Shown piece after piece: positions 12,316-26,661 of a stretch of DNA of 39,754 bases. Each line of letters opens with the position of its first letter. The stretch's first letter is position 1. Made by a program: the position numbers and the translations under genes. Under the pieces are notes generated by a model that was given only the letters and a program-made list of their open reading frames with translations, was not told where the DNA came from and searched no databases. This DNA comes from Acholeplasmataceae bacterium (GTDB lineage: Bacteria > Bacillota_I > Bacilli_A > Acholeplasmatales > Acholeplasmataceae): positions 1 through 39,754 of the forward strand of contig JAGYLU010000014.1 of the NCBI GenBank assembly GCA_018400755.1. Reading direction: 5' to 3'.

Positions 12316-14085
12316 ATGAGCAGCCATGTCATGACCAATGAACTGATCTACAACGCCTTTATCTTAGGCGCCAAAAACGTCATCCATGAGAAGAACAACC
12401 TGAATGCGATCAACGTCTTTCCGGTCGCCGATGGTGACACCGGCACCAACCTGGCGTCGATGATGTCATCCATCATCGATAACGCCCGTTTGAAAGACAC
12501 TCCGAAAGAAACGCTTCAATCGATCGCGGATGCCGCCATCATTGGCGCTCGCGGCAATTCCGGACTGATCTTCGCTGAATACATCAACGGCTTCGCTGAA
12601 AACGACGATGACATCCAGACGGTTGAAGGGTTCATCAGTAGCGCAAAAAGGGCTTTCGAGAGCGCTGCCAAAGCGGTCGCAAAACCCGTTGAAGGCACCA
12701 TCCTGACGCTGATGCGCGCTTTTTCAAATGCGCTTGAGAGTCTGCATAGACTCTCCCAGTCATTTCTGGACATGATGATCAATGCCTATGAATCACTCAA
12801 AGGCGAACTTCAACGCACCCCTGATCTCCTTCCTGTCCTCAAAGAAAACAAGGTCGTTGACGCTGGCGCCAAAGGATTTCTCCATTTTGTCGAAGGGTTC
12901 ATCAAAGCCCTGAAAGGTGAGAAAGCTGACATTGAAGAAGAAGAGGAAACCGTGCCTGTCACCATTCACGTTGACCATTTGGAAGAAGGACAGACCAGAT
13001 ACTGTACCGAAGCGTTGATCAAAGGCGACCCAATCGACATGCGCGGTGTCCGGACTCTTCTTGAGTCGATGGGCGACTCAATCGTCATCGCCGGCAACCA
13101 AAGAACCATGCGCATCCATATCCATACTGACCGTCCCGCCGATGTTTTCAGATCCCTTGATGATTATGGCCGGATTGTCGAACAGAAAGTCGATGACATG
13201 AAGATCCAGTTCGAGATCGCGAACCACAAGAAACATTCGGTCGCCCTCGTGACCGACTCGATCGCCGACCTCCCCAAAGAACTCATCGATCAAAATCAAA
13301 TCGTCATGTTTCCTTTGAACATCCACATGAAAGATTCCATTTACAAAGACAAAATCACCATCGAAAGCAATCACTTCTATGAGATGATGGATACCCTTGA
13401 TGTCTATCCGACATCAAGCCAACCCAACACCAAAGACGTTGAAAACCTCTACTCATACCTTTCGACCCACTACAAAGACATCTTGGTCCTCTCGGTCTCA
13501 TCCAAAATGAGTGGCACCCATCAGGTCTTCAAATCAGTCAGTGAGAAGTTCAAAAACACCAACATCCAAGTCATCGACACACAGCAGAACTCCGGTGCTG
13601 AAGGCCTCTTGGTCATGAAAGCGGCCGAACTGATCAACAAGGGTTATCAGATCAATGAGGTTGTTGATGCGATCAACACGCTCAAGAAGAGAGCGAAAAT
13701 CCTGGTCTCCGTCAAAACCCTCAAGTACATGGTCCGCTCAGGCCGAGTCAAGAAAGTCACTGGCCTGATTGGGAAAATCCTGAACCTGAAACCTGTCATC
13801 TCAATCGATGATGAAGGGAACGGCATCATCTTTGACAAGTCTTTCTCACTGAAGAAAAGCGATACATTGATCCAGAAACACATCGAGAAAGTGATGGACG
13901 ATTCCGGCATCGACACTTATGCCATTGTCCATGCCAATGCCCCTGAACGGGCGGCGGCTTACGCCAAGACCTATGAGGCCATCACCGGACTCAAACCCGC
14001 CTACATCATGGATATCTCAACGATTGTGGCGATGAGTGCCGGCGTTGGAACCGTCGCGGTTGCGTATATCAGAAAGGGTGAATGA
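12316..14085 (+). CDS. DhaL-DegV fusion (FakA-like kinase fused to FakB-like fatty-acid-binding protein)
   Basis: This is a 589-residue fusion. Residues 1 to about 200 are a DhaL/DAK2 ATP-binding domain with [13 protein letters not shown] (33-45) and the IGARGNSG loop, as in FakA. A middle segment (about 205-305) resembles the FakA linker and following domain. From about 308 to the end is a full DegV/EDD domain ([33 protein letters not shown]), the fold of FakB, which holds a fatty acid. In Gram-positives FakA phosphorylates fatty acids bound to a separate FakB, giving acyl phosphate for phospholipid synthesis. Here both parts are one chain. It lies between two membrane-protein genes with 1-11 base gaps. 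A different acyl or lipid substrate is possible. AGGAGG (12303-12308) precedes the ATG. Confidence 0.92.
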
Positions 14086-14086
14086 C

Positions 14087-14869
14087 ATGTTTTTAACCAA
14101 TGCGATTGTCCTTCTCATCTTCTTCACACTCTTCTTTGTCATTGCCCAAGTCAAAAAGAACAATGGTCTCGCTGACATGGCTTGGGGCCTTGGCTTTGTC
14201 ATCACCGCCATCTCAAGCGCGATCTACCAATTGATCCAAGGCAATCAGATTCTATTGGGCTCTTGGATCATCTTAGTGCTGGTCCTGATCTGGGGTCTCA
14301 GACTCTTCTTCTATATCGGCATCAGAAACTGGAACAAACCTGAAGACTTCCGTTATGTCAACATGCGGAAAAAATGGAAGACGAATGTCGCCCTCAAGGC
14401 CTACGTCTATGTGTTCTTGCTTCAAGGACTCTTGAATTATCTGATCGGACTCCCGATCCAGTTCTCATTCGCCCACTCAGGTACCACAACCTCAGTTGTC
14501 ATCCTCGCGATTGGCACCATCCTTTGGATCATCGGTTTCTACTTTGAAGCCAAAGGTGACGCTGAGCTCAAAGTCTTCAAGAAAAACCCTGCAAACAAAG
14601 GCAAGATCCTCGATACCGGGTTATGGTCAGTCTCCCGTCACCCCAACTACTTTGGCGAAAGCGTCATGTGGTGGGCGATCTTCATCGTGAGTCTTTCGGC
14701 CTTTGACCCGATCCTTCTGATTGGCATTGTTGGGCCATCCTTGATCACTTATCTTTTGTTATTCGTTTCCGGTGTTCCCTTGCTTGAAAAGAAGTACAAG
14801 GATAATCCCTTGTATCAGGCATACGCCGCGAAAACAAGTATTTTCTTTCCGCTCCCACCCAAAAAGTAA
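14087..14869 (+). CDS. DUF1295 / steroid-5-alpha-reductase-like membrane protein
   Basis: This is a 260-residue integral membrane protein with about seven hydrophobic segments. The C-terminal [18 protein letters not shown] is the hallmark of the DUF1295 and isoprenylcysteine-methyltransferase/5-alpha-reductase superfamily, which uses NADPH or SAM on lipid substrates. The N-terminal ADMAWGLGF is also typical of DUF1295. The ATG at 14087 is one base after the fusion-gene stop and preceded by GAAAGGG, so it is translated with it. The substrate is not known; linkage to the DhaL-DegV gene suggests fatty acid or membrane lipid modification, which is inference. Confidence 0.88.
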
Positions 14870-16892: not shown

Positions 16893-18871
16893 AAGATGAC
16901 CTCAATCAGTCTGCCGGCTTGGAAAATGATCACCGCGACCACCCACGCCAAACCGGTCTGGAATAAGACCGCCCCAAGCATTTGCCTGGTCGATCCAAGC
17001 TCGCTTCTCATCGCGGCAATTGATCCGAAACATGGTGCGGAAAAGAGATTGAATGCCATGAACGCATACGCTGATGCCGGTGTGAAAAACGCAAACATGC
17101 TTGACTCAAAGATCAACAATCCCGTCGAGACTTCCTCTGAGAATCCGGAGATGATCGCCATCGAAGAGACCACTTGTTCCTTGGCAATCAGTCCTTGAAT
17201 CGCAGAGACCGCGACTCCCCAGTTCATCTCTCCGGTCATCGGATAGAAGATCCAGGCAAAGAGGTTCCCGAGTCCGGCCAGCATCGACTGATCGGCTGGG
17301 ACACCATAGGCAAACCGCCATGAGAAACTGATCAAAAACCACAAAACCACAGACGCGAGCACAATGATTGATCCGGCATTCTTGATGAAGGCAATCGTCT
17401 TACCTCCCACATCATAGGTCACATAGCGAAGATTAGGTACTTTATAGGAAGGGAGTTCCGATATATAGGAAGATGGCTTGCTTCTGAAGTAAAATCGGTT
17501 CATCAGAAGTGCCGAGAAAACGATGATCACAATCGCCAGAAAGTATAAGGATGCGCTTGCGAGCCCGGCATGACCGGTGAAAAAGTATCCGGCAAACAAG
17601 GTGATGATCGGCAACTTCGCACTACAGGGGATAAAGGGTGTGAGCATGATGGTCATCTTCTTCTCACCTTCATCCTTGATGGTCCTGGCCGACATGATCG
17701 CCGGGACCGAACAACCAGAACCAATGATAAAGGGAATCAGAGATTTCCCGGACAATCCGATTTTCCGAAACAACCGGTCCAGAAAGAAACTGATTCTTGC
17801 CATGTATCCGGATGTCTCAAGCAAGGCAATCAGCGTGAAGAGAATCATCAGCTGCGGAACAAACGAGAGAATCGCCCCAACGCCGGCAATGATCCCATCC
17901 ACCACCAGACTGACCGACCAGGCGGATGCTCCAAGACCAAGAAGGGTTGTTGTGGTCCACTCACCAAAATGGTCGATCATGGTACCGACAACCTCAACCG
18001 ACCATGAGCCAACAGCTCCGGCGGCGAGATAATAAATAGCGAACATGATGACGACAAAAATCGGAATAGCGGCGTATTTGTTCAAGAAGATCCGATCAAG
18101 CCGGTCGGTGGCGGACGGGGCCGTCCTTGTCACCTTGATGGCTTCATCCCTGATCATCTCGATGTGCCGATACCGTTCATCCGCAATCACCTGTTCCATG
18201 TCGCGGTTATATGACGACTGCACCCTTTCGATGATGGCGTGGTGTTCAGGAGTGGCATACGCGCTGGCAACGGGATCTTTCTCAAGCAACTTGACGGCAA
18301 AAAAACGTTGATGGATGAGGACCATCGATGCCTCGATTTCAGACAGACCTTTTTCAATCACATGGTCATAGATATGATCGTAGTTGTTCTTCCGGATGTG
18401 TCCGTTCTTGATGATCTGGATCAATTCAAACACACCGGTCTTCTTCAACGCCGAAACCGAGACAATGGTGGTGTCAAAACGCTCTTCGAGCGTCTTCAGA
18501 TCGATCGATATGCCATTGGTGACAGCAAGATCAGCCATGTTCAAAGCCATCAGGACCGGAATATCAAGTTCAAGGATCTGGGTGGTCAGATAGAAACTTC
18601 GCTCCATCGACGTTGAGTCAATGACATTGACAACCAGATCGATCTGTTCTTCGAGCAAATAGTCCCTGGCAATCTTTTCTTCCATCGTATAAGGTGACAA
18701 GGCATAAATCCCCGGCAAGTCAACGACTTCGATGTCCGAACCCCTTAGAAATCCACTCTTCTTCTCAATCGTCACCCCAGGCCAATTTCCGATCTTCTGG
18801 TTGGTGCCTGTCAACAAATTGAAAAGCGTGGTCTTCCCGGAGTTCTGGTTTCCAACAAGGGCGACTCTCAT
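16889..18871 (-). CDS. feoB: Ferrous iron transporter FeoB
   Basis: This is a 660-residue Fe2+ transporter of the inner membrane. The N-terminal G domain has G1 GNQNSGKTT (7-15), G3 VDLPG, G4 NMAD and a G5-like SALKKTG. A GDI-type helical domain follows to about residue 260. The C-terminal membrane part has the two Gate motifs, including IPFIIGSGCSVPAIM and PFIPCSAKLPI with the conserved cysteines. The length is normal. It overlaps feoA by 4 bases (ATGA) and the small Cys-rich gene by 4 bases, so the three are one operon. It probably supplies iron under reducing conditions. Confidence 0.97.
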   Translation of the reverse strand: MRVALVGNQNSGKTTLFNLLTGTNQKIGNWPGVTIEKKSGFLRGSDIEVVDLPGIYALSPYTMEEKIARDYLLEEQIDLVVNVIDSTSMERSFYLTTQILELDIPVLMALNMADLAVTNGISIDLKTLEERFDTTIVSVSALKKTGVFELIQIIKNGHIRKNNYDHIYDHVIEKGLSEIEASMVLIHQRFFAVKLLEKDPVASAYATPEHHAIIERVQSSYNRDMEQVIADERYRHIEMIRDEAIKVTRTAPSATDRLDRIFLNKYAAIPIFVVIMFAIYYLAAGAVGSWSVEVVGTMIDHFGEWTTTTLLGLGASAWSVSLVVDGIIAGVGAILSFVPQLMILFTLIALLETSGYMARISFFLDRLFRKIGLSGKSLIPFIIGSGCSVPAIMSARTIKDEGEKKMTIMLTPFIPCSAKLPIITLFAGYFFTGHAGLASASLYFLAIVIIVFSALLMNRFYFRSKPSSYISELPSYKVPNLRYVTYDVGGKTIAFIKNAGSIIVLASVVLWFLISFSWRFAYGVPADQSMLAGLGNLFAWIFYPMTGEMNWGVAVSAIQGLIAKEQVVSSMAIISGFSEEVSTGLLIFESSMFAFFTPASAYAFMAFNLFSAPCFGSIAAMRSELGSTRQMLGAVLFQTGLAWVVAVIIFQAGRLIEVIL

Positions 18872-19137
18872 GAGATCACCTCAACCATGATCTTCCTCAT
18901 ATCATCGCGTCTGAGACAAAGCTCATAACCTCTGAGATGAATGTCAACAGGGTCACCCAAAGGGGCGATCTTCTTGATGGTGACGAGGACACCTTCGGTC
19001 ATGCCCATATCAAAGAAACGCCTCCTCATCTCGGGATCAGAAGCGTCTATGGCAGTCACTTTGCCTTTTTGTCTGAGGGAAAGGTCCGATAAGGGGACGA
19101 TCTCTCCCGGAAGTGCCTGATAACGTCGTTTTCTCAT
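18868..19137 (-). CDS. feoA: Ferrous iron transport protein FeoA
   Basis: This is an 89-residue SH3-like cytosolic protein that works with FeoB. It shows the family pattern of a ligand-binding beta barrel: RRFFDMGMTEGVLVTIKKIAPLGDPVDIHLRGYELCLRRDD. Length and position immediately before feoB are typical. AAAGGAATC precedes the ATG. I see no clear Fur or DtxR box in the short leader. Confidence 0.95.
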   Translation of the reverse strand: MRKRRYQALPGEIVPLSDLSLRQKGKVTAIDASDPEMRRRFFDMGMTEGVLVTIKKIAPLGDPVDIHLRGYELCLRRDDMRKIMVEVIS

Positions 19138-19204: not shown

Positions 19205-19219
19205 ACGATATCATCACAT

Positions 19220-19253
19220 AGAAAAACGCTTGTCTATTGACTATAAACAAGCG
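19220..19253 (-). terminator. Terminator of the crt-phr operon
   Basis: On the minus strand CGCTTGTTTATAG-TCAA-TAGACAAGCG-type pairing is followed by TTTTTC. It starts 22 bases after the photolyase stop and just precedes the feo promoter. Confidence 0.82.
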
Positions 19254-19275
19254 CTTTGTTCATCATAAAGACATA

Positions 19276-20667
19276 TCAGCCATGCATCGCTTTGAGACCC
19301 TCAATACGTCTGACATAGGCATCGATATCGAATTTGCGTTCAAGCCCTTTGTCATTCATATATCTGAGTTTCCCAAAGATCTGCCGTTCCGTCCACGGAC
19401 GGTCATGACGTCCGAAACACCATGCGACACCCGTATATGAATTGGGATCCCGCCCATCGATGAAATAGGTGTTGTTGAGCCATATGATCCGCTCAAAGGC
19501 TTCCTTGTAAGTCAGACTCCATTCAATCACTTTCTTCGCCCAATACATCCGCATGTAGTTATGCATGTATCCGGTGAGTCGCATCTCATCCATCGCCGCA
19601 TTCCAATAAGGATCATGCGTCTTGGCCTGTTCAAGGCTCTCCCTCTCATAAAGATAAGGTCTGAAATCTTCCAAATGATCGTCCATTGTCTCATAAGCCC
19701 ATGGGTGTGTCATCGATTCAAAGGTATCATAACCTTCATGGTACCACACAAAATTGAATGCGAGTTCACGGCGGACAAGGAGTTGTTCGATATAACCATC
19801 AAAGGAGAGTCCCTCATCAATCAACCCTTCTGATTGGGCTTTGAACATCCGCTCAAGAATCTCGAGAGCAGAGATCTGTCCAAAATGAAGGTACATTGAC
19901 ATCTTTGAGGTCAGTTCCAAAGCGGGATCGTTGGACCGTTCGTAGTCGTTGGCCTTATGATTGATGAAGTCTTCCAAGAGCCGCCTGGCTTCAAGATATC
20001 CACCACGATAGATCGGGCTTTCTTTGATGGCCCGGTCAATCGTGATCTTTTGAAGGAGTCCCTCTGTATCCTTGGGATCATGACTAGATCCAATCGGAAA
20101 GTTACCACCATGATATTTGGGCAGTCTCTTGAAATCCCTGAACGATTGATACAGTTTCCTAATCTTCGGTCTTAAGGTATACGCGCCATATTCGGTCTTG
20201 TCAGAGGCGACTCTGACTGGGACGATCAGATCCGTATCGACGGCATGAACGGCCAATCCGGGCGTCTCATCAAGACGGGTGATGATCGTCCTTCGCCACT
20301 GTCTTTGGGTCTTCAGATAGCCCTCGTCCATCACCAGAAGCCTGGCCTCTTTGGCCAGGTCAGCGATGATCTCTTCTGGCACACCGATTCTAACGGCAAA
20401 AGGGATTCCCAGACGCTCAAGCTCAATCGCAGTTTCCCTGATCCCTTCTAGCATGAAGCGGTAATGTCTCAGATTCGCATCCGGATACCCGTCGGTCAAA
20501 ACAAAAACCACGACCAAAGGACATCCCATGGCATGTGATGATTCGATCGCACAAGCCAGGGCGTGGTTGTATTGGACGCGTTGGGACTGCTGCATCCAGT
20601 ATAGGACATAACGACCAGAATGGTTCTCTGTCCCTTCTTTCATAACCGTGATCCGTTTGTCGTTCAT
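19276..20667 (-). CDS. phr: Class II CPD photolyase
   Basis: This is a 463-residue flavoprotein that uses blue light to split cyclobutane pyrimidine dimers. Class II signatures are present: YVLYWMQQSQRVQYNHAL at the start of the antenna domain, the FAD-domain SMYLHFGQIS, the strongly conserved LVRRELAFNFVWY, then LTGYMHNYMRMYWAKKVIEW and GRDPNSYTGVAWCFGRHDRPW. The length is typical of the class. The ATG at 20667 overlaps the DUF92 stop (ATGA), so it is the last gene of the carotenoid operon. A lone photolyase gene is common, but this linkage to carotenoid genes and a divergent heliorhodopsin is notable. Confidence 0.96.
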   Translation of the reverse strand: MNDKRITVMKEGTENHSGRYVLYWMQQSQRVQYNHALACAIESSHAMGCPLVVVFVLTDGYPDANLRHYRFMLEGIRETAIELERLGIPFAVRIGVPEEIIADLAKEARLLVMDEGYLKTQRQWRRTIITRLDETPGLAVHAVDTDLIVPVRVASDKTEYGAYTLRPKIRKLYQSFRDFKRLPKYHGGNFPIGSSHDPKDTEGLLQKITIDRAIKESPIYRGGYLEARRLLEDFINHKANDYERSNDPALELTSKMSMYLHFGQISALEILERMFKAQSEGLIDEGLSFDGYIEQLLVRRELAFNFVWYHEGYDTFESMTHPWAYETMDDHLEDFRPYLYERESLEQAKTHDPYWNAAMDEMRLTGYMHNYMRMYWAKKVIEWSLTYKEAFERIIWLNNTYFIDGRDPNSYTGVAWCFGRHDRPWTERQIFGKLRYMNDKGLERKFDIDAYVRRIEGLKAMHG

Positions 20668-21461
20668 ACGGCAAACATCAATACCGTGATGACGGATGCT
20701 GAAAGCGAACTCAGGAAATTGACGGCATCATTGGTGATCAAGGCAAAGCCGGATGCCAAGATGACTTTCTCATCCGGTAACCATTTGACCTCGGTGATCC
20801 GACCGGAGAGAACACCTTTGTATTTGGCTTGGATGATCGCGCCGAGATAACTGTCAATGAAACAGCCTAGAAATCCCCCCACCGCGATGATGGTGGCAAA
20901 ATAAATGGTATTTTGAAGTGTCAATGTCGCTGTCAGGCCATAGATCAGCAGGAAGACGAGTGAGATGAGAAGCGCACCAAAAAAAGATGCCATGGTCCCG
21001 AGTTTGGAAATCGCGCCGGAGATGCCGCGCTCTACCTCCTTGAAGTTGATGATCGAATACGTCTTTCCTTTGGACAGTGAGCCAATCTCCGATGCCCAAG
21101 TATCGGAATTGCTGGTCGCGATCGATACCACGGCCGCGACCAGATAGATCTCTTTTTGAACGAAAAAATAGATGAGCGAGAAGAACGTCGCGACCAACGC
21201 ATTCGAAATGACCTGGACGTAGTTCCTTCCGTTTTTCTCCTTGTCTCTGGGGTCAATCCTGTCATGGATCTTGGTGATCACAGACGATGAGATGAAAAAC
21301 GCGATCAGGGGTCCCCAGACAAGCATCCCGGCTGAGACATAAATGACACTTCCAAAAAACACGGCCGCAATCAGCCCACTCAAGGAAAGTGACTTCTTCA
21401 TATATGCAAGCCCGGCAACGACCAAGCTGATGACAAGACCAATGATCAGATCAAATCCCAT
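20664..21461 (-). CDS. DUF92 family protein (homologue of phytyl-phosphate kinase VTE6)
   Basis: This is a 265-residue membrane protein with about six or seven hydrophobic segments. The family core is present: VVSIATSNSDTWASEIGSLS, then KEVERGISGAISKLGTMASFFGA and the C-terminal TNDAVNFLSSL. The plant and cyanobacterial member VTE6 phosphorylates phytyl phosphate to the diphosphate. By family and neighbours I infer that this enzyme makes a prenyl diphosphate, perhaps geranylgeranyl or farnesyl diphosphate, for CrtB. A good site (GAAGGGGGA) precedes the ATG. The gene starts 15 bases after the kinase stop and overlaps phr by 4. The substrate is unproven. Confidence 0.88.
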   Translation of the reverse strand: MGFDLIIGLVISLVVAGLAYMKKSLSLSGLIAAVFFGSVIYVSAGMLVWGPLIAFFISSSVITKIHDRIDPRDKEKNGRNYVQVISNALVATFFSLIYFFVQKEIYLVAAVVSIATSNSDTWASEIGSLSKGKTYSIINFKEVERGISGAISKLGTMASFFGALLISLVFLLIYGLTATLTLQNTIYFATIIAVGGFLGCFIDSYLGAIIQAKYKGVLSGRITEVKWLPDEKVILASGFALITNDAVNFLSSLSASVITVLMFAV

Positions 21462-21476: not shown

Positions 21477-22133
21477 TCAAACGAGCAAGACGATCAGCAT
21501 CGTCGCCAGAAAGGCCGCACCTGGGACCGTCAGGTTGTCCAAACCCTTTGGGGTCACAAGTTCAACCACAGTGGAAACCACCGCCACCGCAAGTGCGATC
21601 AGAAGCCAGCCGACGGGATTCAAGATCAACAAGATGATGGCGGTGACGGCAAACGATGCCAGAAACATCGCCGCTGTCCCTTCAACCGATTTTCCGTTGA
21701 TCAATCGGTGTTTTCCATACTTGGTCCCGATGACAGCTGCCAAGCCATCACCATAGCCCATGACCAGAATACCGATCAGGCCCGCATACAATGGAATCGA
21801 TTCAAACCCGAAAGACAGTGAGACCAAAACCAAAAGTGAGACCGGAAACCAGACGGTACCAAGATTGCCGTTACCACTTCGTTCCATGGCTTTGATCAGG
21901 TTCATCCTGTAAGACAAGTAATTCAGGGCAATGAAGGTGACTGGTGGAATGATCGCCGCCCAGACATTGTCAGCGAAGTAGATCATCGCGATGATGTACC
22001 AGTTCGAAACCCCGATGTGGATGAACTTCCTCGCCCCTTCATCACCAAAGACATGTTTGTTTTGAAGCAACGTTGACATACCAATCACAAGAAAGATAAA
22101 ACCGTAAGAGAGTACAAATCCCAACCAGATCAT
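21477..22133 (-). CDS. CTP-dependent prenol kinase family (phytol/dolichol kinase, VTE5/SEC59-like)
   Basis: This is a 218-residue membrane protein of the phosphatidate-cytidylyltransferase-like fold. The signatures are DEGARKFIHIGVSNWYI near the N-terminus and GYGDGLAAVIGTKYGKH...NGKSVEGTAAMF, the CTP-binding pattern of VTE5, SEC59 and DGK1 kinases. Such enzymes phosphorylate phytol, dolichol or diacylglycerol. Next to the DUF92 gene, a two-step prenol to prenyl-diphosphate salvage is the simplest reading. It overlaps crtB by 4 bases (ATGA) and has AAAAGGAG 9 bases before the ATG. A diacylglycerol kinase role cannot be ruled out. Confidence 0.87.
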   Translation of the reverse strand: MIWLGFVLSYGFIFLVIGMSTLLQNKHVFGDEGARKFIHIGVSNWYIIAMIYFADNVWAAIIPPVTFIALNYLSYRMNLIKAMERSGNGNLGTVWFPVSLLVLVSLSFGFESIPLYAGLIGILVMGYGDGLAAVIGTKYGKHRLINGKSVEGTAAMFLASFAVTAIILLILNPVGWLLIALAVAVVSTVVELVTPKGLDNLTVPGAAFLATMLIVLLV

Positions 22134-23083
22134 ATAGAAGTTCTCCTTTTCTGCGTTTGTCTGAATTGTTCGATGAGGGCCTTCTTCTGGGCGTCACTCA
22201 CGTAGTTTTTCTTGGTAAACACATCATAATCCGATGCCCTGATGGCATCAAGGATGCCTCTGTACAAGATGATGGAAAGCCCAAGAGGGATTCTGGCATC
22301 AAATGGAAAGAGATGCAAGTTTTCAAGCGATTTGTCATAATAGCGTTCAGCATGACCCGCCAGTTCTTCAAATAGATTGATGAAGCCCTGGGTGATCCTT
22401 CCTTCGGCCAAATCGGCTTTGGTGACCTGATGGCGAGCCATCAGATCTTGGGGCAGATAGATGCGGTTGTTTCTTTGATCCTCACCGACATCTCTTAGGA
22501 TGTTGGTGAGCTGCATGGCATATCCAAGCTCATCAGCAAAGGTCATCAGGACATCCTTGGACCTTGGAGCGAGAATGGGCACCAACATCCGGCCAACGGT
22601 TGAGGCCACATGATAACAATACTTGAGTAAGTCATCCAATGTCTGATAGCCCTGATGCTTGAAATCCATCCGCTGGCCTTCGATCATCTCAAAGTATGGC
22701 TTGAAGAGGTAATCCTTGCCATAGAGGCGTCTGACATCCGAAAGCGCTCTGAAGATCACATCATCGATCTTCTCACCTTGGACAAAACGGGCAAGCGCGT
22801 CTTCTAGAGCATCCAGGCCATCTGAATCTTGGTTCTCATCGATCAGGTCATCCGCCTTCCGGCAGAAGGCATAAACCGCATAGACCGCGTTTCTCTTCCT
22901 TCTGTTTCTGATTGCGGAAAAGGCTTTGTAAAAGGTTTTTGAGTTCTTCTTGATGATCATCTCGCAGTGTTTGTAATCATCTTGTAGTCTAAGTGCCAGA
23001 AACAACCGATATCCAAGAAAGGTCGCGAGAGACACAATCAGAGCCACAATCGTGACTGGATGAAAAATGAGATCTGTCATCAT
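22130..23083 (-). CDS. crtB: Phytoene/squalene synthase family protein (CrtB or CrtM-like)
   Basis: This 317-residue enzyme condenses two prenyl diphosphates head to head to make phytoene (C40) or dehydrosqualene (C30). The first Asp-rich motif is YAFCRKADDLID and the second is MQLTNILRDVGED, both intact, with NRIYLPQD after it. An added N-terminal hydrophobic helix (about residues 8-30, VTIVALIVSLATFLGYRLFL) would anchor it to the membrane; typical CrtB proteins lack this. It overlaps crtI and the kinase gene by 4 bases on each side. Whether the chain length is C30 or C40 cannot be told by eye, and this decides whether retinal could be reached. Confidence 0.93.
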   Translation of the reverse strand: MMTDLIFHPVTIVALIVSLATFLGYRLFLALRLQDDYKHCEMIIKKNSKTFYKAFSAIRNRRKRNAVYAVYAFCRKADDLIDENQDSDGLDALEDALARFVQGEKIDDVIFRALSDVRRLYGKDYLFKPYFEMIEGQRMDFKHQGYQTLDDLLKYCYHVASTVGRMLVPILAPRSKDVLMTFADELGYAMQLTNILRDVGEDQRNNRIYLPQDLMARHQVTKADLAEGRITQGFINLFEELAGHAERYYDKSLENLHLFPFDARIPLGLSIILYRGILDAIRASDYDVFTKKNYVSDAQKKALIEQFRQTQKRRTSI

Positions 23084-24570
23084 GGCCGGATATCCCTCAA
23101 AATCTCATTCACAGCAATCCTCGCACTGATCAAAACAATTGGCACCCCGGCACCGGGGTGGTTGCTGCTACCGGCAAAGTAGAGGCCTTTGACCTTTTTG
23201 GATGTCGCCTGGGGGCGGAAATAGAGACTTTGCGAAAGCGTTGGCTGAAGTCCGAAGGTCGCGCCGAACTGAAGATTGAACATCGACTCGAATGTCTTGG
23301 GTGTATAGATGTGCTCAACCTCGATATGTTTTTCAATCTCTTCAAAACCATCGATTTTTTCGATCATCCGGATGATTTTGTCACGGGTTGTCCTGATCTC
23401 TTCTTGGGACCACGAAGCGGACCCTTTTTGCATAGAGGGTACCGGAACCAGGACATAGAAGCCATCTTTGCCTTCTGGTGCGACCGAAGGATCGATCTGT
23501 GAAGGCGAATACATGTAGAAACTCGGATCATCAGGAACATTGAACGCAAACAAGTCATCAATGTTCTTGCGGAAGTCTTTGGCAAACCGCAAGCTATGGA
23601 CTGTCGTCGGAATCTTCTTGTCAAGCCCCAGATATAAGATGAATGTTGAGGAGGAATAAGTCATCTTTTGGGTGGTTTTTTTAAGTGTGTAAGGTTTTTT
23701 GTGTTTGTCTTCCTTGATCAGATGGTTCATAGCCCACGGGAAATCGGCATTCGAGAGGACGACATCAGCCTTGATGAATCCCTTCTTGGTCATAATACCT
23801 GTGACCCGGTTGCTTTCAATCACGATCTCTTCCACTTGGCTTTCAAGGATGATCTTGCCACCAAGTTCCTCAAACCTTTTGGCCATGGCAACTGCCATCT
23901 GATACATGCCACCTTTGATATACCATACCCCATAGAGCAGTTCAATCATGGGAATGATGGTATAGATCGATGGTCCGGAAAAAGGTGAGACGCCAACATA
24001 CAAGGTTTGGAATGTCAATGCTTTTCTAAGGTTGTCATCCTTGACAAACCTTGAAATGGACTGATACGCACTGTTGAGTGTTCGCAGTCTAAGCGCTTGA
24101 TAAAGCGACTTCGGGTTAAAGAAGTCGCTGGCTTTGCGAAATGGCTTTTCGATGAAATGTTCTTTTGCGATCAGATATCGTTTATAGACATCAGCAAGAT
24201 ACGCCAAATACCCATGCGCATCACGATCACTGATCGATTCGAGTCCCTTGATCAGTTTGGTGAGATTGGTTGAGATTTCAAAGGCATGATGTCCATCAAA
24301 GTGGATGGTATTCATCGGTTCAAGTAGGTCCATGCTGAAATAATCGCGGGGATTCGCGCCTGAGGCAAGAAACACGTCATCGTATTCTTGTGGCATCATG
24401 ACAATGGTCGGGCCAACATCAAAAACAAATCCCTTGTCTTCGATCTGATACATCCGACCACCAATTTTGGGGTTTTTCTCATGGATCTCGACATCGAATC
24501 CCAATGCCTGCAGTCTGATCCCTGCGGCCAGTCCGGCGGTTCCGGCACCGATGACAATGACTTTCGCCAT
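23080..24570 (-). CDS. crtI: Carotenoid desaturase (phytoene or dehydrosqualene desaturase, CrtI/CrtN family)
   Basis: This 496-residue FAD oxidoreductase introduces double bases into the colourless precursor made by CrtB. The N-terminal VIVIGAGTAGLAAGIRLQALG is the dinucleotide-binding fold, followed by EKNPKIGGRMYQIEDKGFVFDVGPTIVMMP. The C-terminal GLYFAGSSNHPGAGVPIVLISARIA is the hallmark of the CrtI family. I start at ATG 24570 because AAGGAAG lies 8 bases before it; the upstream GTG at 24579 is within that region. It is the first gene of the crtI-crtB-kinase-DUF92-phr operon and diverges from the heliorhodopsin gene across 238 bases. Confidence 0.94.
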   Translation of the reverse strand: MAKVIVIGAGTAGLAAGIRLQALGFDVEIHEKNPKIGGRMYQIEDKGFVFDVGPTIVMMPQEYDDVFLASGANPRDYFSMDLLEPMNTIHFDGHHAFEISTNLTKLIKGLESISDRDAHGYLAYLADVYKRYLIAKEHFIEKPFRKASDFFNPKSLYQALRLRTLNSAYQSISRFVKDDNLRKALTFQTLYVGVSPFSGPSIYTIIPMIELLYGVWYIKGGMYQMAVAMAKRFEELGGKIILESQVEEIVIESNRVTGIMTKKGFIKADVVLSNADFPWAMNHLIKEDKHKKPYTLKKTTQKMTYSSSTFILYLGLDKKIPTTVHSLRFAKDFRKNIDDLFAFNVPDDPSFYMYSPSQIDPSVAPEGKDGFYVLVPVPSMQKGSASWSQEEIRTTRDKIIRMIEKIDGFEEIEKHIEVEHIYTPKTFESMFNLQFGATFGLQPTLSQSLYFRPQATSKKVKGLYFAGSSNHPGAGVPIVLISARIAVNEILRDIRP

Positions 24571-24808
24571 AGAAGTCACTTCCTTATCACATCTATTCTA
24601 TCATAAACCCCTATTTGAGAGGCATATTTCTGACTTCCAGGGTTCTCCTCAGCCATATTCTCACACAAGATACGACATGCTTCACACAATCAAGTTCATT
24701 CTTAATTTGTTCGTAAGCGATAATGCACATACATAGCCAAACCGCTCCCATTTGGTGGTATAATGTGGGCGTATCACGTGCAATCCTATAACATTGGAGG
24801 GTTTTAAA
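24571..24808. promoter_or_regulatory. Divergent regulatory region between crtI and heliorhodopsin
   Basis: This 238-base gap holds the control signals for two divergent units. TCACACAA occurs twice, at 24661-24668 and 24682-24689, exactly 21 bases apart (two DNA turns). On the plus strand an extended -10 (TGGTATAAT) serves the heliorhodopsin gene. For crtI only weak -10-like strings (TATGAT, TAGAAT near 24590-24606 on the minus strand) are seen. A shared light or stress regulator is possible but not shown. Confidence 0.6.
24756..24764 (+). promoter_or_regulatory. Extended -10 promoter of the heliorhodopsin gene
   Basis: TGG followed by TATAAT (24759-24764) lies 44 bases before the ATG. The -35 position (24736-24741) is poor, which fits an extended -10 promoter or one that needs an activator. 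Confidence 0.7.
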
Positions 24809-25615
24809 ATGACCAAAGAAATCACCCCGCAAAGTCTCAGAAGATTCAACATCATCATGGGAGGCGTCCATCTCTTCCAAGGGCTCCTCATGATTGTCCT
24901 AGGTTTGACCGTCAGTCAGTTTGGCGACTTCAAGATGAGAATATTCCAAAACTATCTCACCTATGTCGAAGTCGGTGACTCCGGCTATCTTGATTTCGCA
25001 AGAGCTGAAGTCTTCACACTTCCCTTCTTCGCCCTTGTCGCCTCGTTCCTCTTGATTTCCGCTGGTGCCCATGCCTTGATCTCTTTCCCGAAAAAGCTCA
25101 ATGCCATGTATACCAAAGACCTTGAAAAAGGCATCAACAAGCTCCGTTGGTTCGAGTATGCGCTCAGTTCCTCAGTCATGATCGTCCTGATCGCTTATCT
25201 CTTTGGTATCTGGGACATCGCATCCCTCGTTCTGATCTTCTTCGTCAATGCCTCAATGAACCTGTTCGGTCTTGTCATGGAACAGCTCAATTCCGGCAAG
25301 ATCAAAGACAAGGTTGACTGGGGTCCGTTCATTTGGGGAACCGTTGCTGGTCTCGCACCGTGGATCGCCATCATTCTTTATATGACAGGCGCGACCGCTG
25401 AAGCGACCGCACAGACACCATGGTTCGTCTGGGCCATCGTCGGTACATACTTTGTTGCCTTCAATACCTTCCCAATCAACATGATTCTTCAGTATATCGG
25501 CAAAGGCAAATGGCAAAACTACCTTTACGGAGAACGCGGATACATCGTTCTCTCACTCGTTGCCAAAACCATCCTTGCCTGGCTTGTCCTGGTTGGCGCA
25601 CTCCAACCGTCCTGA
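24809..25615 (+). CDS. Heliorhodopsin
   Basis: This 268-residue seven-helix retinal protein is of the heliorhodopsin family, distinct from type-1 pumps and sited with its N-terminus inside the cell. Family marks are RRFNIIMGGVHLFQG, NKLRWFEYALSSSVMI, FFVNASMNLFG, VDWGPFIWGTVAGLAPW, NMILQYIGKGKW and YIVLSLVAKTILAW. The retinal Schiff-base lysine is Lys253, and the counterion by alignment is Glu116. His21 and His88 match the two conserved internal histidines. GGAGG lies 8 bases before ATG 24809. Heliorhodopsins do not pump ions in most tests; signalling, enzyme regulation and a link to photolyase have been proposed. It is divergent from crtI and has its own terminator. Confidence 0.97.
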   Translation: MTKEITPQSLRRFNIIMGGVHLFQGLLMIVLGLTVSQFGDFKMRIFQNYLTYVEVGDSGYLDFARAEVFTLPFFALVASFLLISAGAHALISFPKKLNAMYTKDLEKGINKLRWFEYALSSSVMIVLIAYLFGIWDIASLVLIFFVNASMNLFGLVMEQLNSGKIKDKVDWGPFIWGTVAGLAPWIAIILYMTGATAEATAQTPWFVWAIVGTYFVAFNTFPINMILQYIGKGKWQNYLYGERGYIVLSLVAKTILAWLVLVGALQPS

Positions 25616-25686: not shown

Positions 25687-26661
25687 ATGCGTATGAAAAA
25701 AATCATCCATCCCGAACTCTATCAAGGTGATCGGAAGAAAGACAATTACTTCGAAGGCTGGTATTACAAGCTCGTCAGTGAGGATCAGAAGACCTCCGTT
25801 GCGTTTATTCCTGGCATCTCAAAGAACAAGGATGATCCCCATGCCTTTATCCAGGTGTTCCTCTCTACGACCGAAAACGGAACACCACATCTTTTGACCG
25901 ACTATGTCCGGTATCCGATCGATGACTTCCGGTATAGCCACGAAACCTTCATGGTTGGAATCAATCAGAACACCTTCACCATCGGTTCACTTGAGATTGA
26001 CCTAAAAACCCGTCATGGCCATATCAAGGGTCGTTTCAAACTGGATGGGACCACCCCAATCAAAACCTCGCTTCTCTCTCCAAACGTGATGGGAATCTTC
26101 GGCTATCTTTCGTTCATGGAGTGCTATCATGGCATCATCAGCATGTCCCATCATCTTAATGGAACCCTTTACGTCAAAGATCAGGCCATCCCTTTCGATG
26201 ACGGCAAAGGCTATATTGAAAAAGACTGGGGACGTTCGTTTCCCAAAGCCTATGTCTGGATTCAAAGCAACCATTTTACGAACCCCAAAACCTCGTTTCT
26301 CTTCTCATACGCGGATATCCCCTTCATCGGATTCACCTTCAAGGGGTTGATTGTCAATCTTTTGATCGATGACAAGGAATACCGTTTCGCGACTTATAAC
26401 GGGGCCAAAGTCAAAAAAGAGGTTGTCACCAAGGACCGTGTCAGCTATACCATCAAACGGGGTAGACATACCTTGGAAGTTGAGGCCGAGGCGACCAACA
26501 GTGTCGATTTGGCGTCGCCAAGAAACGGCCGGATGATCGAAACGATCAAAGAGGGCTTAAGTGGCGTTGTGACAATCAAGTTATACAAAGGATCATCATT
26601 GATATATGAAGACCAGGGCACGTCCGCTGGCATCGAGATCATGACATCACCCAATCGCTGA
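25687..26661 (+). CDS. Tocopherol cyclase family protein (VTE1/CrtC-like beta barrel)
   Basis: This is a 324-residue protein of the tocopherol-cyclase-like family. FEGWYYKLV near residue 20, IPGISKN...HAFIQVF after it, and GYIEKDWGRSFPKAYVWIQ at about 177-195 are the family pattern of a lipocalin-like barrel. Plant and cyanobacterial VTE1 closes the chromanol ring of tocopherol; distant relatives hydrate carotenoid ends (CrtC). No signal peptide is seen. AAGGGAAC precedes ATG 25687. The carotenoid and prenol kinase neighbours suggest a prenyl-lipid substrate, which is inference; many bacterial members have no known activity. Confidence 0.85.
   Translation: MRMKKIIHPELYQGDRKKDNYFEGWYYKLVSEDQKTSVAFIPGISKNKDDPHAFIQVFLSTTENGTPHLLTDYVRYPIDDFRYSHETFMVGINQNTFTIGSLEIDLKTRHGHIKGRFKLDGTTPIKTSLLSPNVMGIFGYLSFMECYHGIISMSHHLNGTLYVKDQAIPFDDGKGYIEKDWGRSFPKAYVWIQSNHFTNPKTSFLFSYADIPFIGFTFKGLIVNLLIDDKEYRFATYNGAKVKKEVVTKDRVSYTIKRGRHTLEVEAEATNSVDLASPRNGRMIETIKEGLSGVVTIKLYKGSSLIYEDQGTSAGIEIMTSPNR

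Follow-up and report, generated by a model that had tools for sequence, protein, structure and literature searches.

A class II-like photolyase gene closing a carotenoid operon opposite a heliorhodopsin gene in Acholeplasmataceae

Acholeplasmataceae are wall-less bacteria, and the finding of a photolyase gene (phr) behind their carotenoid genes and opposite a heliorhodopsin gene (HeR) raised the question whether this neighbourhood reflects a tie between both light-related proteins or merely chance. The window, i.e. the whole stretch of DNA analysed (39,754 nt, to which all coordinates refer), is contig C46 of a genome coded G000 (2.23 Mb, 95% complete). Its minus strand carries, in the order of reading, crtI, crtB, a gene for a 218-aa polyprenol-kinase-like protein, DUF92 and phr, and HeR forms a divergent unit on the plus strand together with a lipocalin-type tocopherol-cyclase-like (Toc-like) gene (Table 1).

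Table 1. Positions of the features discussed, with the evidence for each assignment.
Feature	Position	Strand	Evidence
DegV/Dak2 (fatty-acid-kinase-like) protein	12316..14085	+	PF02645, PF02734; adjoins phr or HeR in several relatives
DUF1295 (steroid-reductase/ICMT-like) membrane protein	14036..14869	+	PF06966 E 7e-75; recurrent phr neighbour
Intrinsic terminator region 3' of phr	19214..19275	-	15-pair stem and U tail, -17.7 kcal/mol, z -3.25
phr, class II-type CPD photolyase, last operon gene	19276..20667	-	463 aa; PF00875 E 7.8e-25; TIGR00591; 2xry
DUF92 membrane protein (VTE6/polyprenyl-phosphate-kinase-like)	20664..21461	-	PF01940 E 1.8e-63
218-aa membrane protein, dolichol/phytol-kinase-like (COG0170-type motifs)	21477..22133	-	motifs, weak fold matches
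crtB-like phytoene/squalene synthase	22130..23083	-	PF00494 E 3.4e-67
crtI-like phytoene desaturase	23080..24570	-	TIGR02734 450.9 bits, over cut-off 238.1
crtI-HeR divergent intergenic region	24571..24811		about 240 bp; TATAAT upstream of HeR
Heliorhodopsin HeR	24812..25615	+	PF18761 E 5e-87; NCBIfam HeR 280.7 bits, over cut-off 100
Tocopherol-cyclase-like protein (AttH/CrtC-type double lipocalin), downstream of HeR	25687..26661	+	PF14249 E 4e-19

Among the NCBIfam models, TIGR00591 (class II phr2) matched the photolyase best by far (468.5 bits, E 3e-140), and as the curated cut-off of 550 was not reached, the protein is termed class II-like here. Its best PDB relatives were class II enzymes as well, Methanosarcina mazei 2xry aligning over residues 1-456 (E 6.7e-90), and the original prediction of a class II photolyase thus holds in this form. 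In M. mazei numbering, with the residue roles that we presume, R378, M379, W381, W388, N403, D409, W421, R429 and R441 are conserved, and the tryptophan dyad W360/W381 and most FAD/substrate residues are retained. Gln is found at E301 and Arg at W305; E301, which we take to correspond to the catalytic Glu of class I enzymes, is not a formal class II criterion. Throughout the Acholeplasmatales-type photolyases (window; L076-L109, L148, L161) Gln occupied E301 in every aligned sequence, including all 24 homologues from the families f1 and f5, and Glu was present in those from f13, f16 and f27. Position W360 was Phe in nearly all homologues across the order and Trp in the window protein and in G028. 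As the tryptophan dyad was present in all class II enzymes sampled in a residue-mapping paper (PMC7560933), this branch of photolyases is slightly unusual. In G018 (L087) phr is split, or the assembly is in error.

Along the operon from crtI to phr, two 4-base overlaps are followed by a 15-base gap and a third 4-base overlap. The latter is an ATGA at 20667-20664, common to the DUF92 stop and the phr start as originally noted; because the phr ATG lies within this stop, and no Shine-Dalgarno sequence was found upstream of it upon inspection of the start context, a translational coupling of phr to DUF92 is suggested. The predicted terminator was missed by a pattern scan due to its loop limit, and RNA folding revealed the hairpin behind phr. 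Since FeoA (18868-19137) and then FeoB come next, the operon ends with phr. From the tight packing and the terminator we infer that phr is likely co-transcribed with the crt genes. The original wording, that it must be made with crtI and crtB, goes further than this; moreover, crt is not a constant partner, since in seven relatives phr and HeR face each other directly, head to head and with no crt gene between, and nine of the searched HeR carriers lack crtB. In a pattern scan, promoter-like sites were at chance level (12 found, 9.5 expected). The crtI-HeR intergenic region likely holds promoters in both directions, with ATG 24570 a more likely crtI start than GTG 24579, and ATG 24812 (Shine-Dalgarno GGAGGG) preferred over TTG 24794 for HeR. 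It is the promoter of the crt operon, not phr at a distance of 4.1 kb, that faces HeR, and both transcripts may be co-regulated through this shared region. When 17 divergent intergenic regions (13 without near duplicates) were screened by palindromes and k-mers for a common operator, only TATAAT-like promoter words and shuffle-level matches resulted.

The genes for phytoene synthase and phytoene desaturase are co-directional and overlapping, as expected for a carotenoid operon; a stop, or an assembly error, was observed within the crtB match of G036 (L111). The 218-aa protein gave no Pfam match and shows invariant GYGDG, GKS.EG-like and TPKGLDN-like motifs, and its model (pLDDT 86) led to weak fold matches with CDP-DAG synthetase (prob 0.94, E 0.065) and archaeal CarS (5guf). 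From motifs, weak fold matches and the example of VTE5/VTE6, with DUF92 presumably VTE6-like, both proteins look like a pair of polyprenol kinase and polyprenyl-phosphate kinase. Such a pair could recycle isoprenols such as phytol and geranylgeraniol to GGPP as a supply for carotenoid synthesis. Both genes accompany crtI-crtB in seven relatives (G005, G028, G036, G043, G048, G058, G406). The AlphaFold model of the Toc-like protein (pLDDT 92) was matched by Foldseek to AttH (2ich), kievitone hydratase and pericyclases (E 1e-8 to 1e-10), and a sequence search of the PDB found no relatives of either this or the 218-aa protein. In many relatives the Toc-like gene follows HeR or faces crtI.

In HeR itself, the Schiff-base Lys and the counter-ion Glu are conserved in the alignment to 48C12, and the N-terminus is short, with no zinc-finger extension seen. 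Its named relatives come from two MAGs, one listed as 'Bacilli bacterium' (84% identity) and the other as 'Acholeplasmataceae bacterium', and we therefore take the family coded f1 to be Acholeplasmataceae. A contig scan with one HeR as query returned two loci only. In-frame stops in HeR, or assembly errors, occur in G028 (L092) and G034 (L075), and a second, very divergent HeR is located away from phr in G032 and G023 (L077, L078).

Among 61 relatives, which are not statistically independent, phr was detected in 19/19 HeR-positive and in 5/42 HeR-negative genomes, and HeR and phr lie within 5 kb of each other in 13 of these 19 carriers. A phylum sample of 392 genomes gave photolyase in 25/30 HeR carriers compared to 22/362 others (odds ratio 77) and, at genus level, in 14/19 HeR genera compared to 8/135 others (p 1e-10); of the five carriers lacking phr, three (G118, G259, G330) show HeR as fragments only. 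When photolyase was counted within 10 kb of HeR, as had been proposed as a check, 10 of the 25 genomes of this sample with both genes were found, with about 1% expected for each. The pairing is therefore not chance, as originally suspected, and an absence of co-occurrence, which together with a separate phr promoter would have spoken against the original reading, was not observed.

The arrangements behind these counts differ. The seven relatives with phr directly head to head with HeR are G002 (g1), G004/G017 (g3), G016/G027 (g15) and G024/G033 (g10); crtI-crtB-phr takes this position in g9 (G010/G032/G023), and the full crtI-crtB-kinase-DUF92-phr operon in G000, G036 and G028 (with a broken HeR in the last). 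Outside the family, in f27, DegV-DUF1295-phr (G327, G395) or DegV-phr (G328) is head to head with HeR. In the families f1 and f27, the operon facing HeR has four different compositions, each closing with phr. The only tandem case, HeR followed by phr, was found in f13 (G112). The operon DegV-DUF1295-phr is also present in G018, and the recurrence of DegV/Dak2 and DUF1295 beside phr (L087, L143-L145) hints at a lipid modification tied to light damage. Linkage is not universal: HeR and phr are apart in G019, G035, G043, G050 and most f10 genomes, some unlinked calls being uncertain due to a HeR at the contig end (G154, G188). In order-level relatives without HeR linkage it is the Toc-like gene that the crt operon faces head to head (G043, G048, G058); in G035 the Toc gene is faced by phr instead, with HeR located elsewhere.

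Such a pattern might be explained by ecology and joint light regulation only, if genomes from sunlit habitats maintain the genes for HeR, photolyase and carotenoids as a single photoprotection cluster with no functional contact between HeR and photolyase. The co-clustering of Toc-like, DUF1295, DegV, crt and phr genes would fit, as would the many HeR carriers with unlinked phr and the observation that PF14249 also tracks HeR in the phylum sample (23/30 carriers, 27/362 others). As the Toc-like gene does so also where crtB is missing from the genome, it may act on something other than a carotenoid. However, adjacency of HeR and phr recurs with different HeR clades, and direct binding has been published for the pair of Trichococcus (PMC9769723), which puts the ecological explanation, in our estimate, on the less likely side.

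If the order had instead arisen once in an ancestor of the Acholeplasmataceae and had been inherited since, the HeRs at this position should form one clade. In the HeR tree, the window HeR groups with one f10 and one MAG sequence, neither of them next to phr (96/97), and the g9 HeR falls into a distant clade with G035, G043 and G257. A single clade of all linked f1 HeRs was rejected by AU tests with p 0.0004, and without g9 with p 1e-5, these p-values being indicative because of long branches and of groups named after the tree was seen. The HeR tree requires at least 8 switches between the linked and the unlinked state, while the window phr groups with that of its congener G002 (97/95). A vertical origin would account for the FeoB-phr-HeR synteny in g1, g3, g10 and g15, for MscS near phr in four genera and for a phr tree mostly following taxonomy. 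It is nevertheless unlikely, as g9 has another HeR type and crt genes with no FeoB beside, other arrangements occur in f13 and f27, and the HeRs that occupy this slot do not form a single clade (AU p<0.001). By these AU tests a single inherited event was rejected for the HeR partner, and HeR transfer out of f1 could give part of the pattern. The trees argue that the pairing was re-formed, that HeR was replaced in place or that it was passed on from this slot, rather than a frozen accident of one ancestor.

As HeR in the window directly faces the crt genes in head-to-head orientation, the operon might exist to feed it, with carotene cut to retinal and phr as a passenger. PF18916 (CrtYcd-type cyclase) and PF03055 (RPE65-type oxygenase) gave no match in 21 genomes in which the controls were detected; PF05834 (CrtY) had no match in the window's genome, which is 95% complete, and short or weak ones elsewhere; Blh (PF15461) was not found, a weak negative as its control was silent. 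Since these searches turned up no convincing lycopene cyclase or carotenoid-cleavage enzyme, the operon is probably not a source of retinal for HeR, which probably uses retinal from outside. Together with the HeR carriers lacking crtB, this makes a retinal-supplying operon very improbable, and crt is dispensable to the pairing of HeR and phr.

We give about an even chance to a light-damage island, consisting of a carotenoid operon that ends in phr and a divergent HeR/lipocalin transcript, with HeR as sensor or helper of photodamage repair. The operon would lead to a membrane carotenoid protecting the membrane, with the CPD photolyase as its last product, and the divergent transcript to heliorhodopsin and a lipocalin-type isoprenoid-modifying enzyme. 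By analogy to the biochemistry of the Trichococcus pair, HeR would most likely act as light sensor or helper for repair, possibly in physical contact with the photolyase. A wider version is offered only tentatively, and we consider it rather doubtful: in Acholeplasmataceae and neighbouring lineages one divergent light hub might have been repeatedly rebuilt or re-stocked with different HeRs facing a phr-ending operon, in cells not making retinal, with HeR serving photolyase as helper or sensor by means of scavenged retinal throughout a whole wall-less lineage, and the carotenoid operon as an optional add-on.

The function of HeR is still debated, and the evidence tying it directly to photolyase comes mostly from a single biochemical study. 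Useful comparative support is therefore given by an independent lineage whose HeR carriers nearly always possess photolyase and whose pairing recurs with different HeRs; it also separates this link from carotenoid and retinal synthesis, and its linked and unlinked pairs are a natural set for asking whether physical interaction tracks gene linkage. In the part of the literature covered, no description of this gene set in Acholeplasma-type bacteria was found, nor any mention of rhodopsin, photolyase or phytoene in Acholeplasma/Tenericutes genome papers. The locus is real, its pairing is above chance, and most of it is anticipated by published work, which includes photolyase in crt clusters and the tie of HeR and photolyase; what is new is the lineage, the place of phr at the end of a carotenoid operon opposite HeR, and a pairing that recurs with different HeRs.

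The assumption that photolyase genes usually stand by themselves or belong to stress operons does not agree with published systems. In Thermus, LdrP co-activates crt and phrB within the LitR/LdrP light regulon (PMC5401885); there, light induces crt and photolyase jointly, with a regulator of the B12 type, and a comparable joint induction is putative for the window. Actinobacterial crtR clusters carry lpc (lipocalin) and phr (PMC5401885) and thus combine carotenoid, lipocalin-type and photolyase genes as in the window, but they show no HeR and have the MarR regulator CrtR adjacent, whereas no regulator gene lies beside the window operon. HeRs flanked by carotenoid and photolyase genes are known, e.g. 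Znf-HeRs (PMC8612252), and photolyase figures among the ten partners that recur in HeR operons (PMC11109279). The adjoining phytoene synthase/desaturase and photolyase genes are common to these and the window, which differs from Znf-HeRs in its HeR without N-terminal zinc-finger extension, in its lineage and in phr being inside the crt operon. Closest to the pairing itself, and correctly named in the original observation as a tie in another Gram-positive, is Trichococcus flocculiformis, whose HeR binds class II photolyase (Kd 21.7 uM) through a contact that needs R162/K227 of TfHeR, with about 3-fold more repair and activity in green light (PMC9769723). TfHeR and TfPHR share one operon, whereas the window has divergent transcripts, with phr ending a carotenoid operon and a binding of HeR and Phr that is putative; both are Gram-positive systems in which HeR neighbours a class II CPD photolyase, likely on a common theme of light and repair.
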